IMG/VR virus record: IMGVR_UViG_3300021963_000478
Coordinates: 1-29,718 of that record
Length of the DNA stretch: 29,718 bases
DNA from: a virus
Strand: one strand, 5' to 3'
Part shown: in pieces, positions 16,200-25,790 of the stretch
Layout of the letters: the number at the start of each line of letters is the position of its first letter
How positions within the stretch are numbered: the stretch's first letter is position 1
Position numbers and translations under genes: made by a program
Notes under the pieces: generated by a model
The model's database searches: none
The model's input: only the letters and a program-made list of their open reading frames with translations
Told to the model about the DNA's origin: nothing

Positions 16200-16505
16200 T
16201 CACTTAAGTGGTGTAATAGTAACTCGACCGACACCTTCGCTATCTAGACCAATTGCTCGCGCAGCAGCACGACTGAGATCAAGCTCACGACCAGGAATAA
16301 AGGGGCCACGATCATTGATTCGTACAGTTGTGCATTTGGAGTTACGCTTGTTGCAGACCCTCAGCCTTGTCCCAAAGGGGAGGCTTCGATGTGCTGCAGT
16401 CATTGAGTTCATGTTGTAGATCTCACCAGAAGCGGTGCGTCTACCGTGATACGGAAGGCCATACCACGAAGCTAGAGTTGCAAAAGTAAGTGTCAGAGAA
16501 AGCAT
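16200..16505 (-). CDS. RlpA-like double-psi beta-barrel peptidoglycan enzyme
   Basis: This protein has 101 residues and consists almost entirely of one RlpA/DPBB domain: 'ASWYG' (12-16), 'GRRTASGE' (21-28), 'MTAAHRSLPFGTRLRV' (35-50), 'VRINDRGPF' (61-69) and 'GRELDLSRAAARAIGL' (72-87). Bacterial RlpA proteins are septal lytic transglycosylases that cut glycan strands lacking stem peptides. The catalytic Glu, His and Asp of that family correspond to Glu28, His39 and Asp65 here, all present. Only about ten hydrophobic residues precede the domain, too short for a standard signal peptide and without a lipobox. The usual SPOR domain is absent. It lies between scaffold and capsid, away from the usual lysis genes. 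It could be an endolysin or a virion hydrolase. Two Cys (51, 58) could form a disulfide. Confidence 0.88.
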   Translation of the reverse strand: MLSLTLTFATLASWYGLPYHGRRTASGEIYNMNSMTAAHRSLPFGTRLRVCNKRNSKCTTVRINDRGPFIPGRELDLSRAAARAIGLDSEGVGRVTITPLK

Positions 16506-19672: not shown

Positions 19673-19858
19673 TCATTCCTCATTAATGATTTGTTCAATG
19701 TATTCGACCACACTCCGTTGACCAGAGCGGTACATAATATCGTCAATCTTGTCACCTGGACTTGGCCTCGATGGCGGGAAGTTGACCTCCAAATCAGCCA
19801 ATAGTTTCTCAACAGTCAGCCCAAGATTAAGCGTACTGTGGGAGGTTTGGATTTGCAT
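19673..19858 (-). CDS. Hypothetical 61-aa protein downstream of nrdB
   Basis: This protein has 61 residues, starting at the ATG at 19858 and overlapping the end of nrdB by 32 nt. An upstream in-frame TTG at 19864 is a less likely start. Sequence features are 'LNLGLTVEKLLADLEVNF', then 'GDKIDDIMYRSGQRSVVEYI', and an acidic helical end ('EQIINEE'). I do not recognise the family. It is the last gene before the head cluster. Confidence 0.75.
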   Translation of the reverse strand: MQIQTSHSTLNLGLTVEKLLADLEVNFPPSRPSPGDKIDDIMYRSGQRSVVEYIEQIINEE

Positions 19859-20537
19859 GTTCAAAGAAGGCAGGCATACGTGCCCGCTGAGTATCGAGTA
19901 ATCCTTCTGCCTTACCTGCGTACATCAGACTATCGCTCTGATCAAGCCAGAACTGTTTGTCCAGGTACTTATCTTCGGAGCGCTTAAGTGGTTGCATCAC
20001 CCAAGCGATGGTTGCCTTACGCAGACGATCCAGGGAGGGGGAGACAGTGTGACCAAGCTCACGACACACAAGTGAGTTACAAGCTACGTGGACCTGTTCA
20101 TCCCTAGAGATGTCAGCACTCACAGTTCGGAGACCAGCGTCACCATTAAAGCGGAAGAATGGGAGTAGTACGAAGAACACCGCACGTTCGGCCACCATTG
20201 CTTTGAGGACAGTGTGATCAGGATGCGCCGTCCACGCATCGCGGAGTCGCATTGCTTCGGCTTCAGCAGTTTCGTCAACACCCAAAGCATTGGCGATGTA
20301 ACCGAGAGCCAGGTCGTGCTTCTCCTCGTCTTTGATATTAGATTTGAGCAGGTCTGCCGATAGAGCTGGAACTTCACCAAGCGCAGATTCAATGAAGCTA
20401 CCAACGGGGAGTTCCATGTGTCGCATAGCGAGCGCACGGAAGATCGTTTCTTCAGCACCACTCTTGACTTGACCAGAGGTTGTTTGAACAGGAGTCCAGG
20501 TTCGCTTACGATTCAGAAGTTTTTGATAGGGGTTCAT
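19827..20537 (-). CDS. nrdB: Class I ribonucleotide reductase beta subunit, divergent NrdB
   Basis: This protein has 236 residues, much shorter than E. coli NrdB (376). The ATG overlaps the nrdA stop (ATGA). The ferritin-like metal site is visible: Glu42 as probable first ligand, Glu71-x-x-His74 ('DEEKHD'), Glu117 ('MVAERAVFF') and Glu147-x-x-His150 ('ISRDEQVHV'). The residue four after His74, which carries the radical Tyr (Tyr122) in E. coli, is Leu78. The protein therefore cannot form the standard tyrosyl radical at that site and would need a metal-based or other radical, as in tyrosine-less class I subgroups. A C-terminal Tyr ('LPQYA') may serve in radical transfer to NrdA. I recall cyanopodovirus RNRs once being called class II until such a beta subunit was recognised. 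Confidence 0.88.
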   Translation of the reverse strand: MNPYQKLLNRKRTWTPVQTTSGQVKSGAEETIFRALAMRHMELPVGSFIESALGEVPALSADLLKSNIKDEEKHDLALGYIANALGVDETAEAEAMRLRDAWTAHPDHTVLKAMVAERAVFFVLLPFFRFNGDAGLRTVSADISRDEQVHVACNSLVCRELGHTVSPSLDRLRKATIAWVMQPLKRSEDKYLDKQFWLDQSDSLMYAGKAEGLLDTQRARMPAFFEHANPNLPQYA

Positions 20538-21949
20538 TCGGCACAGTCACACATAGGTTTATCAGAATCTTCAAGCAGTGATTCCAAGTAATTCTCAACG
20601 TCAGCAGCATCCAACGCTGCATACGCATTCGACTTGTCTTGGGTATCAGGCATTACCTGAAGAGAATAATAGAGAGACGTTTGTGGCGAGTTAAGCCAAG
20701 ATTCAACGTACTGTTCGTCATAGGTGACGACATCACTCCAACTGTTGAACGAGTACCCATGAAGGAGTCCCGTCTTATCCAACATTGAAACGATGCCATT
20801 TGCCACATCGAAGTAAGCATCCCAGCCCACCTCGCTAGCAATCTCTACGTCACCATAGTTAAAGCTTTCTACTCCAAACGTACCGCTATCTCGATCCACC
20901 TTTCGTGCGATAGGAGGAGCAATCTCCGGCGTCGTTGTAAAGCCATCGAGGTCAGTGTATCGATAGGAGCAAGATGCAGTTGGCGCGATAGCAAACGCTC
21001 GGACCATGCCGTTGCTGCGAGCAACACTGGCAGCACCTTCAATAGCACGTTTAAGTTCAGTAGCGAGAATGATTGCCGGGGTCGGTTCATAATTACGGAA
21101 GTCCTGCCCCATGTTGATCTTGGTAAGAGCTGCCCCAAAGTCTTTATAAGAGACGTTGTAGCGCCTCAAAAGGTTCGCTAGACCAAGCATCCCCAGACCC
21201 ACCTGACGGTCGATCTCAGGCGTTAGGTACTCACCGCTTTCACCGACTCCGGTCTTGGCGTGGAGGGAACACAGCTCTTGCATCCCACGAGTGAATGCCT
21301 GCTGCAGATCTCCCACTTCACAGGCTCCAAGGTTGACGTGTTGGAGCAGGCAGGTTCCCCGGCTGGGGAGGTAGACCTCAAGGCAGACGTTTCCATAAAT
21401 TCGTTGTCCAAATCCATCGACCTTAGTTTTATTAAGCCAGATATCCCCACGCTTAATACCAGTGAGGAGAGCATCCTTTACTTCTTGCGAAGCTTTTTCC
21501 CACCAAAACGGATTAACATTGACGCACCGCTTGACCCAGGGAAGATCAGCTCGACTAGCAGTGATAAACTCGAGTACGTCAGGATGCTGAAGATCAAGGT
21601 GACAAACAACAGCTCCATTTTTATAAACGCCTCCGCGCCTTAGGATTTCATTGAGGGTGGAGTAGATCTTGGCGAATGACACAGGGCCTGACGCCACAAG
21701 TCCTCGACCATTTTCGCTTCCTCGACTACGGAGTTTAGATAGGTGTACAGCAACTCCTGCTCCGTATCGGAGTGCGTGGGAGACGAATCTCCATGAGGCT
21801 TCAATTCCATTAGGACCTTCCATTTCATCCTCCACCACAAACACGGTGCAGGACACAGGGAGGCGAGAGGTCGGATCATCAATCCAACTTTGAACCCGGC
21901 CAGTGCGGGCGATCAATTCTTTATTCACAGTAGGTTCAAACAAGATCAA
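20534..21949 (-). CDS. nrdA: Class I ribonucleotide reductase alpha subunit
   Basis: This protein has 471 residues and reduces ribonucleotides to deoxyribonucleotides for phage DNA synthesis. Visible catalytic elements are Cys34 ('LPVSCTVF') and Cys200 ('GTCLLQHVNLG') as the active-site redox pair, and Asn187-x-Cys189-x-Glu191 ('NVCLEVYLP') with the thiyl radical Cys. Tyr427-Tyr428 ('SLYYSLQV') correspond to the class I radical-transfer dyad, and a C-terminal Cys pair is at 467/469 ('MCDCAE'). The Tyr dyad and adjacent nrdB argue for class I, not class II. There is no N-terminal ATP-cone, so overall dATP inhibition of the usual type is probably missing. An in-frame stop lies directly before TTG at 21949, so initiation must be at TTG or a later GTG (21928); no ATG is available near the N-terminus. 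Confidence 0.93.
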   Translation of the reverse strand: MILFEPTVNKELIARTGRVQSWIDDPTSRLPVSCTVFVVEDEMEGPNGIEASWRFVSHALRYGAGVAVHLSKLRSRGSENGRGLVASGPVSFAKIYSTLNEILRRGGVYKNGAVVCHLDLQHPDVLEFITASRADLPWVKRCVNVNPFWWEKASQEVKDALLTGIKRGDIWLNKTKVDGFGQRIYGNVCLEVYLPSRGTCLLQHVNLGACEVGDLQQAFTRGMQELCSLHAKTGVGESGEYLTPEIDRQVGLGMLGLANLLRRYNVSYKDFGAALTKINMGQDFRNYEPTPAIILATELKRAIEGAASVARSNGMVRAFAIAPTASCSYRYTDLDGFTTTPEIAPPIARKVDRDSGTFGVESFNYGDVEIASEVGWDAYFDVANGIVSMLDKTGLLHGYSFNSWSDVVTYDEQYVESWLNSPQTSLYYSLQVMPDTQDKSNAYAALDAADVENYLESLLEDSDKPMCDCAE

Positions 21950-22316
21950 TTAGAGAGGGTTCAAAATAGTTAGGGCCTTTGAGGATCTTTCCGTCTTCAC
22001 GTCGAAGTGGCCTTCCGTCAACACCAAGCTTGCTCATGTTGCTTGAATGCACCCGGTTGTAAGCAACCTGAAGATCCCAGCCAAAGGAGGCAGCCATTTG
22101 GTGGCACACATACACAAGATCTGCTAGCTCCTTCAGGAGGTGCTCACGAGCTTCCTTGTTCGTGATGTCATCCTTGAGGTAGAGGTAGGCGTGTGCTACT
22201 TCGAGGTGCTCCTCATCGATCAAATTCTGCTGAAGATTCAAAGAGGTAGTCGTCAACCCTTGCGGCAGTCCGTAGGCTTTCCGAAATTCGTGTGCTGCTT
22301 GCTCGTAAAAACTCAC
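21936..22316 (-). CDS. MazG-like nucleotide pyrophosphohydrolase
   Basis: This protein has 126 residues with the all-alpha NTP-pyrophosphohydrolase pattern: the first acidic cluster Glu35-Glu36-x-x-Glu39 ('IDEEHLEV'), the second Glu63-x-x-Asp66 ('KELADLVYV') and the downstream 'NRVHSSNMSKL' helix. Such enzymes hydrolyse (d)NTPs to NMP and pyrophosphate, and MazG proteins are frequent in cyanophages, where a nucleotide-pool role has been proposed. The start appears to be GTG (22316), giving a 104-nt overlap with the DUF3310-like gene. The end overlaps the nrdA start. Placement beside nrdA supports a nucleotide-metabolism function. Confidence 0.85.
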   Translation of the reverse strand: MSFYEQAAHEFRKAYGLPQGLTTTSLNLQQNLIDEEHLEVAHAYLYLKDDITNKEAREHLLKELADLVYVCHQMAASFGWDLQVAYNRVHSSNMSKLGVDGRPLRREDGKILKGPNYFEPSLIDLV

Positions 22317-22494
22317 GTTCGTTTTCTAGGTAGTGGATTGCTTTAGTAAGATCATCAATAGGATCTACGCCAGCCTTCTTGCCGCATCGAGTGATGTACT
22401 TGATGGCGTTACCAAGGTGGAAGCTCAGCTGTTGGTCTCGGATGAAGTCACCGACCTTCCAACTGCTTCCGTAATGGGTTGGGGAAGTGGCCAT
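22213..22494 (-). CDS. DUF3310-like protein
   Basis: This protein has 93 residues. The central 'FHLGNAIKYITRCGKK' and 'DDLTKAIHYLENE' match the DUF3310 family (small phage nucleotide kinase-like/SaV-like proteins) in which 'lGNaiKYi.R.g.K....DL.KAi.YL' is conserved; an early 'HYGSSWKVGDFI' also fits. The biochemical role is not settled. The ATG lies inside the end of the NblA-like ORF (70-nt overlap), and its own end is overlapped by the mazG-like gene. This compact arrangement suggests translational coupling across the three small genes. Confidence 0.85.
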   Translation of the reverse strand: MATSPTHYGSSWKVGDFIRDQQLSFHLGNAIKYITRCGKKAGVDPIDDLTKAIHYLENEREFLRASSTRISESLRTAARVDDYLFESSAEFDR

Positions 22495-22676
22495 TTCTTT
22501 ACAAGGTTAGATACAGTATTAGAAAGGACAAAGTTTTGATGTTGTAGAGCCATGAAGATCGTAATGATGTCTTCCTTCTTGGCTTCAGGCAGCAGATCGT
22601 TCAGTCGTCGCAGCTTGAACTGTTGCTCGACTGTCATCTCCATCACTGGAGGTGGGGGTCCAAAGGATTGGAACAT
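22425..22676 (-). CDS. nblA: NblA-like phycobilisome degradation adaptor
   Basis: This protein has 83 residues. Residues 14-64 follow the NblA pattern closely: 'MTVEQQFKLR' (14-23; cyanobacterial NblA has 'LSLEQQF.iR'), then a two-helix segment, then 'NLVKKWPL' (57-64; NblA has 'LLKHQWGL'). The distance from the Phe to the Trp is 43 residues, one fewer than in the Anabaena sequence I recall. NblA is a helical hairpin dimer that binds phycobiliproteins through its C-terminal region and recruits Clp protease, dismantling the antenna. The N-terminal ten residues (Phe/Pro-rich) and the C-terminal 20 are extra. The first ATG overlaps the exonuclease gene by 92 nt; ATGs at codons 12 and 14 are alternative starts. 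Phage nblA genes are known from freshwater cyanophages such as Ma-LMM01. The homology is by eye and should be tested. Confidence 0.72.
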   Translation of the reverse strand: MFQSFGPPPPVMEMTVEQQFKLRRLNDLLPEAKKEDIITIFMALQHQNFVLSNTVSNLVKKWPLPQPITEAVGRSVTSSETNS

Positions 22677-23379
22677 TGTTCTCGTGATCGAAGTCGTTGT
22701 ATTGAAGGATCTTGGCTAGACGTGCATTACGAAGGGCGTCTTCCTCAGTCATGTCTTTCTCTAGGAAGGTCTCTAGGACGGTGTTCCACTTGCAACCTTT
22801 GGTGTCAAGTAGAGCAGCAGCACGTTTGATCCCGATGCCAGGAGCCCCGGCATAGCCATCGGTCTGGTCACCACTCATCGTCTGAATCAGATGCCAGCGA
22901 TCCCCCTCTTCCTTGGTGATTTCAGTCACAGGATTTGTTAGGTCAAACAAGAGACCAGGGATCTGCCGCATGTCTTTATCGGGACTGACGAGGATGTGGC
23001 CTGCCTCAAGCTCAATGGGGTCAGTTGCATAAACGCCCAGGGCATCGTCAGCTTCAAGGCCATCGACCATGATCGTGATGTAGTTCTCACCACACCAGTT
23101 CAGCAGCCGCTTGTAGCCACAGGGCTTCTTTCTGTTTCGATGACCTTTGTAATCGGGGTAAATTTTTTTCCTGAAATTTGTAGGACTACTAAAGAAAAGG
23201 ATGAAGTCATCAAACAACCCCATGCACTCAGCAATGGACATCAGCTCCCGCTGGAACATGTCTAGAACATGGGAAAAGCGGCTGGTGACAACGATCACGT
23301 CATTGCCAAAGTCAACCTCGTCTTCACAGGCTGCACAGGATTTGTAGGCCAGGTAGTCAGCGTCAATAAGGAGGCTCAT
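22585..23379 (-). CDS. 5'-3' exonuclease (T7 gp6 / FEN-like)
   Basis: This protein has 264 residues with the metal-binding acidic residues of the FEN/5' nuclease family: Asp6 and Asp8 ('LLIDADYL'), Glu109/Asp111/Asp112 ('GLEADDALG'), Asp134/Asp136 ('SPDKDMRQIPG') and Asp171/Asp174 ('SGDQTDGYAGAPGIG'). The last merges into the helix-three-turn-helix DNA-binding motif. In T7, gp6 removes RNA primers and degrades host DNA. The ATG shares a base with the previous stop (TGATG). It is the last classical replication enzyme before the nblA/DUF3310/mazG/nrd cluster. Confidence 0.95.
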   Translation of the reverse strand: MSLLIDADYLAYKSCAACEDEVDFGNDVIVVTSRFSHVLDMFQRELMSIAECMGLFDDFILFFSSPTNFRKKIYPDYKGHRNRKKPCGYKRLLNWCGENYITIMVDGLEADDALGVYATDPIELEAGHILVSPDKDMRQIPGLLFDLTNPVTEITKEEGDRWHLIQTMSGDQTDGYAGAPGIGIKRAAALLDTKGCKWNTVLETFLEKDMTEEDALRNARLAKILQYNDFDHENNVPILWTPTSSDGDDSRATVQAATTERSAA

Positions 23380-23582: not shown

Positions 23583-23719
23583 TTACCTTGACCTCGTCGT
23601 AGTTTCTTTGATCCTTTTGGGAGGGAACGGGTTCCATTTCCCTGGTGGGTGTGCTTGTACTTTGCACGTGATTCAAAGGTCTTTTTGGATAGGTTTGTTT
23701 TTGATTTCTGTGGAGGCAT
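23579..23719 (-). CDS. Small basic 46-aa protein
   Basis: This short ATG frame begins MPPQKSKTNLSKKTFESRAK and ends 'RSLPKGSKKLRRGQGK'; about one third of residues are Lys or Arg. It starts inside the end of the HNH endonuclease gene (47-nt overlap) and ends with an ATGA junction to the 67-aa gene. It fills what would otherwise be a 90-nt hole in a gapless operon. No Shine-Dalgarno is visible. The composition suggests a nucleic acid-binding or ribosomal-protein-like peptide. No family is recognised. Confidence 0.65.
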   Translation of the reverse strand: MPPQKSKTNLSKKTFESRAKYKHTHQGNGTRSLPKGSKKLRRGQGK

Positions 23720-24137
23720 TCTGTAGATACATAACAGCTGCCATCAAGCCAGCCAGGTTGTCACCTAGTTGACCTATGGCTCGATTGCATTGATTACAAA
23801 GCCACCCACGATGTTTCAACGTGGAGTGATCATGATCAAAGCAAAGTTGAGATTTTGTGTCGCCACAAATAGGACACGGTGTTCCTACCTGTGGTGGTCT
23901 TGGGTTGCCCGCTAAGGACTTGGCTTGTGCAAGAGCTTGACTAGCTGCAGACTCACAAGATTTGCATTTAGATCGACGGTAATCTGAATCACCCTTTCTC
24001 CAAGGCGCAAACTCAAGTATGTCTTTTAGTTGACCACATTTAATGCACCGAGTAAAAGTCTGGTCCGACTTTTCCTTGGGCTTCGATTGGGCAGCGCAAC
24101 TTGTAAAACTCCCCAGCAGCTCTAGCTGAGTACTCAA
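23673..24137 (-). CDS. Endonuclease VII-type HNH nuclease without an ATG start
   Basis: This reading frame has 154 codons. An N-terminal zinc-knuckle pair (Cys31-x2-Cys34, Cys58-x2-Cys61) precedes the recombination endonuclease VII core: Cys88-x2-Cys91, 'CFDHDHSTLKHRGWLC' (99-114) and 'CNQCNRAIG' (114-122), with zinc Cys114/Cys117 and the His/Asn of the nuclease site. T4 endonuclease VII resolves Holliday junctions, but relatives are often free-standing homing endonucleases, and the position directly after DNA polymerase fits that. There is no ATG before residue 132. The candidate start is TTG at 24137, which overlaps the polymerase gene by 98 nt; CTG codons 7-8 are other options. The recognisable domain begins just where the polymerase stops. 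Confidence 0.8.
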   Translation of the reverse strand: MSTQLELLGSFTSCAAQSKPKEKSDQTFTRCIKCGQLKDILEFAPWRKGDSDYRRSKCKSCESAASQALAQAKSLAGNPRPPQVGTPCPICGDTKSQLCFDHDHSTLKHRGWLCNQCNRAIGQLGDNLAGLMAAVMYLQNASTEIKNKPIQKDL

Positions 24138-25314
24138 GTATGAACTTCATTGTGTCGGCCTCAGCCGGGGGGACTTCATAAAACAAGGCATCGTGAATAA
24201 ACGCTAACTGGTGTGAATCAAGCTTCTGTTCTTTGATCATGTCATCGATCATGACCATCCAGCGTTTGGCTACTACACCAGCACTGGATTGAAGAAGATA
24301 GTTCAGAGCCTTGTGAGGCCCGTCAACCGATATTCTTCGCCCATCAATCGAATTAACATACCCTGAAGCTGTTGCTTTTTTCTTGACTGCATTAACAAGA
24401 TCCTCAAGACCTTCAATTGCATCAAGATACGCTTGCCTAATTTCTTTTCCCTTTTTTCTTGCCTTATCGGCAGGAAGCTGAGGGTCATAGGAACGTCCGA
24501 TCTTTTCGTCCCCAGCCCCATAAAGGAAAGCATAGGTAACGGTTTTGACAAGCTTACGGCTAATTCCAATCTTGTTAGCGTTGACTTGGTGAATATCACC
24601 ATTAAGCAGGACCTCACCATACTTGCCGCTGTCATAACGAGCAAGGTAGTGCGCGAACATTCGCAGCTCGATGCCGCTAAAATCGGCGCCAGCCATGACC
24701 AGTCCTGGAGTAGGTCGGAAGAGTCGTTGAAATTGTTCTCCACTAGGAATCTGGGCTACGTTAGGATTTCGATGTGCGCATCTATGCGTGTTCGTAGATA
24801 CAGAACAATGATGATGAATCCGGCCATTCCGAAGAAGCTTTAACCAAGCATTAGTGCCTTCCGACAACATGCCAAGCTGCTTGTTCAGATCCAAGCACTG
24901 AAGAAATTCAAGCGCAATTGGAGTGCCAATCTCAGTAAGTACTACTTCATCAATGGTTGCCTTCCCCTTATCTGTGAATTGGGTTGGCTTCCACCCATAG
25001 AACTCCTTCATCACCCATGCGATGTGATCTCGACTGGTTGGGTTAAGATCCTTGAGGCGCGTAAAAGCACATCCATTGAAATATCCTTGGGTCTTGTTAG
25101 GACGACGAGGAGTAAACTCGCTTCCCGCAACGAAAGGATGTCGTTCTCTAAGAGATGCTGACAGCGATTCAAGTGTAGATCGAAGTTCCGATTCCAACTC
25201 ATGAGCGGATCGTTCGTCGAAGTACCATCCATGCAGCTCCTGTTCAGTAAGGATTTCAGCGACCCGATGTTCAAGTGTTATCCAATCAGGAATTTCTTTT
25301 GGAAATGATTCCAT
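24040..25314 (-). CDS. DNA polymerase, family A polymerase domain (split gene, C-terminal part)
   Basis: This ORF of 424 residues from ATG at 25314 holds the whole polymerase domain of a T7 gp5-like enzyme. Motif A is 'GADFSGIELRMFAHY' (Asp211), motif B 'RKLVKTVTYAFLYGAG' (Lys257, Tyr261) and motif C 'FIHDALFYEV' (Asp375). Motif C reads His-Asp-Ala where family A normally has His-Asp-Glu. The thumb insertion that binds thioredoxin in T7 (about 75 residues) is reduced to roughly half that (about residues 58-92), so thioredoxin dependence is doubtful. The C-terminus ends 'GPDFYSVH', matching the natural T7 end. The exonuclease domain is in a different frame upstream (-1 relation, 37-nt overlap). 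The frame stays open upstream to a TTG at 25380. Confidence 0.93.
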   Translation of the reverse strand: MESFPKEIPDWITLEHRVAEILTEQELHGWYFDERSAHELESELRSTLESLSASLRERHPFVAGSEFTPRRPNKTQGYFNGCAFTRLKDLNPTSRDHIAWVMKEFYGWKPTQFTDKGKATIDEVVLTEIGTPIALEFLQCLDLNKQLGMLSEGTNAWLKLLRNGRIHHHCSVSTNTHRCAHRNPNVAQIPSGEQFQRLFRPTPGLVMAGADFSGIELRMFAHYLARYDSGKYGEVLLNGDIHQVNANKIGISRKLVKTVTYAFLYGAGDEKIGRSYDPQLPADKARKKGKEIRQAYLDAIEGLEDLVNAVKKKATASGYVNSIDGRRISVDGPHKALNYLLQSSAGVVAKRWMVMIDDMIKEQKLDSHQLAFIHDALFYEVPPAEADTMKFILEYSARAAGEFYKLRCPIEAQGKVGPDFYSVH

Positions 25315-25790
25315 AGTTTGTGGGTTACCTGTAGGTCTTGGGCGCAATAGTCCTCCATGTCTTGGGACCAGTCTTTCCAATCCGTGGTCTTAGCGAAGCC
25401 ACCCTTGTATTCACCCAACCTGTATCCGTAGGATTCAAGAGAGTGACGACCAAAGAGTTGAAGCGGCATATGGGGCCACTTACGGGTTTGATCTATCTTG
25501 AGAATGTCAGGATGGTAAAGCCGAGAAAGAATAAGAGTGTCCAAAGACCTAGGTGGTTTGAACCATCCATAGAATTTTTGAATTACGGGGATGTCATAGT
25601 TGATAATGTTATGGCCAATGATCGTGTCAGCTTCCTCCAGCATCGTGATAGCACGAGCAATGGGTTGCTGATTACCTTGGTCATTGAAGACATAAGTCTC
25701 ACCGTTATCAAGGTCCTTGATAGCAACACAGTGAATAGTGGATACGTTGTTGTACAGGCCGTTGGTTTCGATGTCGAACAGGAGGTTCAT
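25278..25790 (-). CDS. DNA polymerase, 3'-5' exonuclease domain (split gene, N-terminal part)
   Basis: This protein has 170 residues corresponding to the T7 gp5 proofreading domain. The exonuclease motifs are intact: Asp6 and Glu8 ('LLFDIETNG'), Asp66 ('HNIINYDIPV'), and Tyr148 with Asp152 ('DYCAQDLQVTHKLW'). 'LTWEAL'-like helices are replaced by shorter ones. The frame closes soon after the last motif ('HFQKKFLIG'), while the adjacent -1 frame continues 'KEIPDWITLEHRVAEIL', which is where T7 has '..DIEHRAAWLL'. Two proteins, a programmed frameshift or a sequence error are all possible. The ATG overlaps the previous stop (ATGA). Confidence 0.92.
   Translation of the reverse strand: MNLLFDIETNGLYNNVSTIHCVAIKDLDNGETYVFNDQGNQQPIARAITMLEEADTIIGHNIINYDIPVIQKFYGWFKPPRSLDTLILSRLYHPDILKIDQTRKWPHMPLQLFGRHSLESYGYRLGEYKGGFAKTTDWKDWSQDMEDYCAQDLQVTHKLWNHFQKKFLIG

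Follow-up and report, generated by a model that had tools for sequence, protein, structure and literature searches.

A divergent nblA-like gene between the exonuclease and DUF3310 genes of a T7-like cyanophage

Here we describe a small gene in a 29.7-kb virus record of a T7-like cyanophage (IMG/VR record IMGVR_UViG_3300021963_000478, positions 1 to 29,718), of which the whole stretch of 29,718 nucleotides was analysed and is hereafter called the window. The portal protein of the window is 65-73% identical to those of S-CBP1, S-SRP01, S-CBP3, S-TIP37 and P-SSP7, which groups it with these phages. The gene lies in a block of replication and nucleotide-metabolism genes, where its start overlaps the end of a T7-like exonuclease gene and its end overlaps the start of a DUF3310 gene (Table 1). 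Downstream of DUF3310 come a MazG/PRA-PH-like pyrophosphohydrolase gene and then the ribonucleotide reductase genes. The initial annotation, made from the letters of the sequence, had proposed an NblA-like protein of this length between an exonuclease and DUF3310; its coordinates are exact, the strand, which it did not give, is minus, and Pfam matches confirm both neighbours.

Table 1. Genes of the nblA-like locus and features within the nblA-like protein, in window coordinates
Feature	Coordinates	Strand	Basis
nblA-like gene, 83 aa	22425..22676	-	ORF; ATG at 22676, stop 22427-22425; protein MFQSFGPPPPVMEMTVEQQFKLRRLNDLLPEAKKEDIITIFMALQHQNFVLSNTVSNLVKKWPLPQPITEAVGRSVTSSETNS
T7-like 5'-3' exonuclease	22585..23379	-	PF02739, E 2.3e-11; 3' end shares 92 nt with nblA
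DUF3310 protein	22213..22494	-	PF11753, E 2.1e-11; 5' end shares 70 nt with nblA
MazG/PRA-PH-like pyrophosphohydrolase	21936..22316	-	PF01503, E 3.6e-5
Ribonucleotide reductase, large subunit	20534..21949	-	PF02867, E 2.3e-21
Ribonucleotide reductase, beta subunit type	19827..20537	-	phrog_6799, E 7.5e-131
FGPPPP, Pro-rich N-terminus, similar to S. elongatus NblA	22647..22664	-	conserved in phage family
TVEQQF, residues 15-20, counterpart of cellular NblA N-terminal ClpC-binding motif	22617..22634	-	aligns with SLEQQF
LVKKW, residues 58-62, counterpart of C-terminal phycobiliprotein-binding motif	22491..22505	-	register with cellular NblA
Variable Ser/Thr-rich tail, residues 65-83	22428..22484	-	codon test; low pLDDT; absent in many relatives

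An open reading frame that overlaps both of its neighbours, and that is left unannotated in several deposited genomes (S-TIP37 among them), might be a meaningless by-product of the overlap between the exonuclease and DUF3310 genes, but this reading is ruled out by a codon test and sits poorly with conservation of the frame across dozens of phages. In the test, synonymous and nonsynonymous codon differences were counted for all pairs among 11 close sequences, the window included, in the three forward frames. The part unique to nblA has 598 synonymous and 183 nonsynonymous differences in its own frame, against 37 and 767 or 17 and 797 in the other two, counts that are mutually non-independent across pairs but whose contrasts are large nonetheless. 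Within the exonuclease overlap, the nblA frame has 352 synonymous to 119 nonsynonymous differences, while the exonuclease frame has 29 to 434. The nblA frame is under purifying selection, the exonuclease overlap included; there selection preserves the EQQF motif together with the Pro-rich N-terminus, and the tail of the exonuclease is free. At the other end it is the DUF3310 frame that is constrained (233 synonymous to 160 nonsynonymous) rather than the nblA frame (125 to 388), and the Ser/Thr-rich tail is therefore a by-product of the DUF3310 overlap and not a functional feature of the protein. Many relatives lack the tail in an alignment of 39 family members, and in an AF2 model of the window protein pLDDT falls below 50 from residue 69 onward. 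The tail had been singled out in the initial annotation as a difference from cellular NblA, and it is indeed present; as a functional feature it does not stand.

The only Pfam family matched by the window protein is NblA (PF04485), with an E-value of 9.7e-5 over profile positions 1-49 of 50 and a score of 23.2 bits, 1.8 bits short of the curated cut-off of 25, which is a database threshold and not a biological feature. We nevertheless assign the protein to PF04485, because orthologues at the same place in other genomes exceed the cut-off with 25.2-30.4 bits (L070, L039, S-TIP37, L025, L001, L059 and L020). Among them L001, which is 83% identical to the window protein, scores 28.7 bits, S-TIP37 27.8 and L059 30.4; S-SRP01 scores 24.7, and for the P-SSP7 member no Pfam NblA match was found. 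Across the family, the Pfam profile matches 38 of 39 non-redundant syntenic members (best E 2.2e-7), and the NCBIfam NblA model likewise matches, so the profile match proposed at the outset as a check on the NblA reading is present. Against a profile of cellular NblA, the real window protein outscores all 20,000 of its shuffles.

The evidence also runs in the opposite direction. When a profile of the phage family was searched against the PDB, the first hit was 3cs5, the NblA of S. elongatus (E 8.7e-5), and the second 1ojh, that of Anabaena, out of seven hits that also include the NblA entries 2q8v and 2qdo; when it was searched against 244 cyanobacterial genomes, 27 of 33 matches fell on PF04485 loci. 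An hhalign comparison with cellular NblA gave 53 collinear columns with an E-value of 8e-5, at a probability of only 61%. A tblastn search with Nostoc NblA found nothing relevant in the phage collection, so a single-sequence search is unable to bridge the distance. The window protein belongs to phrog_27006 (E 1.4e-22), for which PHROGs gives no function and for which this evidence favours the name NblA. It is conceivable that an unrelated small helical phage protein resembles NblA by chance in an EQQF motif, since weak matches are typical of short helical proteins and the Pfam score of the window protein is sub-threshold. Set against this are the family-level and reciprocal profile matches and collinearity over the whole length, which leave chance resemblance highly improbable. 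At the level of homology, as judged from sequence profiles, the gene is very probably a divergent nblA.

We take the functional motifs of NblA, from mutagenesis work, to be the EQ..F stretch and the Leu/Lys pair. Both have counterparts in the window protein, where the strings EQQFKLR and LVKKWPL, on which the initial annotation rested, lie at residues 17-23 and 58-64. At the N-terminal end, TVEQQF aligns with the cellular consensus SLEQQF, and T15, E17 and Q18 are invariant in all 39 phage members; the N-terminal motif of cellular NblA is the one that binds ClpC (PMC4103541). At the C-terminal end L58 and W62 are invariant in the phage family, and Leu58 and Lys60 stand at +38 and +40 from Phe20, in exact register with the Leu/Phe and the invariant Lys of cellular NblA. 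That lysine varies among the phages, being Glu in P-SSP7 and Thr in S-TIP37. The spacing of 43 residues from Phe to Trp that had been read from the sequence is right when counted inclusively, but it corresponds to an offset of 42 and so is one residue shorter than in cellular NblA (43 in 25 of 25), and the Trp is followed by Pro in place of Gly. An N-terminal extension rich in Phe and Pro had been held to be unlike cellular NblA, which proved mistaken: after its first residues the S. elongatus protein (3cs5) reads PPLPDFSLSVEQQF, which aligns with the phage Pro-rich N-terminus, FGPPPP being paired with PPLPDF. P8 and P10 are invariant in the 39 members, and FGPPPP is conserved in the nblA frame even though it lies inside the exonuclease overlap.

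The predicted fold has the helix-loop-helix layout of NblA. The AF2 model of the window protein (mean pLDDT 74, pTM 0.42) places helices at residues 16-31 and 34-60, and a control model of Nostoc NblA places them at 9-22 and 27-55, so that the helical hairpin expected of an NblA is predicted here as well. Structural searches of the PDB returned no NblA for the phage model, either with Foldseek or with VIA-align; both searches are uninformative rather than negative, and with Foldseek the model of the genuine Nostoc NblA found none either.

The window protein shares with cellular NblA (PF04485; 3cs5, 1ojh, 2q8v, 2qdo) a collinear domain, the N-terminal ClpC motif, the C-terminal Leu/Lys pair and the helix-loop-helix layout, but is about 26% identical to it and carries the variable tail that comes from gene overlap. 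Phage-encoded NblA is also found in the freshwater cyanophages Ma-LMM01, MaMV-DC and PaV-LD, whose phage types and hosts are unlike those of the window; their expression is accompanied by loss of phycobilin, and in a published tree the nblA genes of marine and estuarine cyanophages are far from theirs (PMC9602691). According to PMC9602691, nblA had been predicted in 14 cyanopodoviruses by Nadel et al. (2019). This marine and estuarine T7-like nblA is very probably of the same family as the window protein. The T7-like cyanopodovirus gene occupies the same place, between the exonuclease and DUF3310/RNR, and over the aligned parts its product is 69% identical to the window protein in S-TIP37, 69% in S-CBP3 and 60% in P-SSP7. 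Nadel et al. (2025; Nature 648:434, as described in PMC12892361) describe NblA encoded by many oceanic cyanophages, with degradation of the host antenna and an estimated drop in light capture. The initial annotation implied more surprise than is warranted, as nblA in T7-like cyanophages was already published. Of the isolates, S-SRP01, a phage from a freshwater reservoir, is closest to the window (81%); nblA goes unmentioned in the paper describing it, and naming the gene in the S-SRP01-type freshwater branch seems a modest addition. It also supplies a probable function for the orphan phrog_27006 and for an ORF omitted from deposited genomes or called hypothetical in them. In S-TIP37, reportedly the phage engineered in the 2025 study, the nblA-like ORF (L082, 2965-3201) is unannotated in the deposited record, though it scores above the Pfam cut-off.

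About 35 cyanopodovirus records and 159 IMG/VR stretches carry this ORF at the corresponding position. When the listed isolates are limited to those with a portal identity of 60% or more to the window, it is present in 13 of 13 podoviruses of Synechococcus and in 4 of 10 podoviruses of Prochlorococcus (Fisher p 0.002, a value that ignores shared ancestry). The recorded host of P-SSP2 is Synechococcus WH8017, so the split could be 14 of 14 against 3 of 9. We regard the split as suggestive only, because these phages are related to one another and the losses may be just two events (Tangaroavirus and P-GSP1). With the family profile, no nblA-like ORF was found in the parts of the genomes searched of 9515-10a, P-SSP6, P-SSP10, NATL2A-133 and P-SCSP-R27W, nor was one found by tblastn alone in P-GSP1. 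Phages of the MPP-A type (Syn5, P60, S-CBP2, S-TIP28 and SS120-1) have no hidden copy in the stretches searched and carry other small ORFs at the nblA position. In P60, Syn5, S-TIP28 and SS120-1 a different small conserved ORF stands there (L237 10690-11130, L238 13820-14200, L236 14600-14960, L234 5300-5560), with a pattern of approximately RNYL..R.AY...PLG...WE.WM..LL.K.E.EL.

The product is very probably a divergent viral NblA, a small protease adaptor that, by analogy with cellular NblA, would bind both ClpC and phycobiliproteins and cause the phycobilisome to be dismantled through Clp. In this scheme TVEQQF, in the first helix, would be the contact for the host unfoldase ClpC and the C-terminal end of the second helix (L58-K60-K61-W62) the contact for phycobiliproteins, perhaps with the protein acting as a dimer in a four-helix bundle. 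The Clp protease would then take apart the phycobilisome of the infected host, probably a freshwater cyanobacterium of the Synechococcus/Cyanobium type, which might bleach. Such breakdown would make amino acids available for building phage proteins and would also reduce light harvesting, and the phage would presumably benefit. If so, a probable freshwater T7-like lineage joins the phages that are able to dismantle the light-harvesting antenna of their host.

Besides the sub-threshold Pfam score, the hhalign probability and the closer Trp followed by Pro, the observations that weigh against the NblA reading include the presence of the family in phages of Prochlorococcus and, in the P-SSP7 member, Glu for Lys and the missing Pfam NblA match. 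Prochlorococcus is reported to have chlorophyll-binding proteins instead of phycobilisomes and to lack nblA (PMC7439483), and the gene is kept by its phages P-SSP7, P-SSP3 and NATL1A-7. The protein might be a Clp adaptor descended from NblA that has kept the ClpC-binding end but carries cargo other than, or besides, the phycobilisome, and that either delivers different host proteins to Clp or occupies ClpC; the contrast between an N-terminal EQ that is invariant throughout the family and a C-terminal Lys that varies is what such an adaptor might show. However, the C-terminal L/K/W motif of the window protein is intact, its relatives infect Synechococcus that bear phycobilisomes, and the distribution among Synechococcus and Prochlorococcus podoviruses, kinship aside, indicates the phycobilisome as the main target, so we consider a different cargo unlikely. 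It is similarly doubtful, though worth stating, that the whole T7-like cyanophage branch of NblA is a broader Clp adaptor, in which the ClpC end is fixed, the cargo end has shifted in the Prochlorococcus phages, and proteins other than phycobiliproteins are also degraded. If it is true that Prochlorococcus phages use the same protein, a target besides the phycobilisome must exist.

Several other features of the window were observed along the way. Between the head assembly and capsid genes lies a gene for an RlpA-like double-psi beta-barrel protein (16200-16505, minus strand; PF03330, E 3e-25), in the interval where Prochlorococcus relatives have hli and psbA; no ORF of psbA length was found in that interval of the window. 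NATL1A-7 is among the psbA matches listed and also among the records with the nblA-like ORF, so exclusion between psbA and nblA is not strict. An Endonuclease VII-type protein (23673-24137, minus strand; PF02945, E 2e-13) overlaps the end of a polymerase ORF. The DNA polymerase itself is encoded by two overlapping ORFs (24040-25380 and 25278-25790, minus strand), one for the 3'-5' exonuclease part and one for the polymerase part, as is also the case in S-TIP37 and P-SSP7; the records of these two note a split gene or a programmed frameshift.
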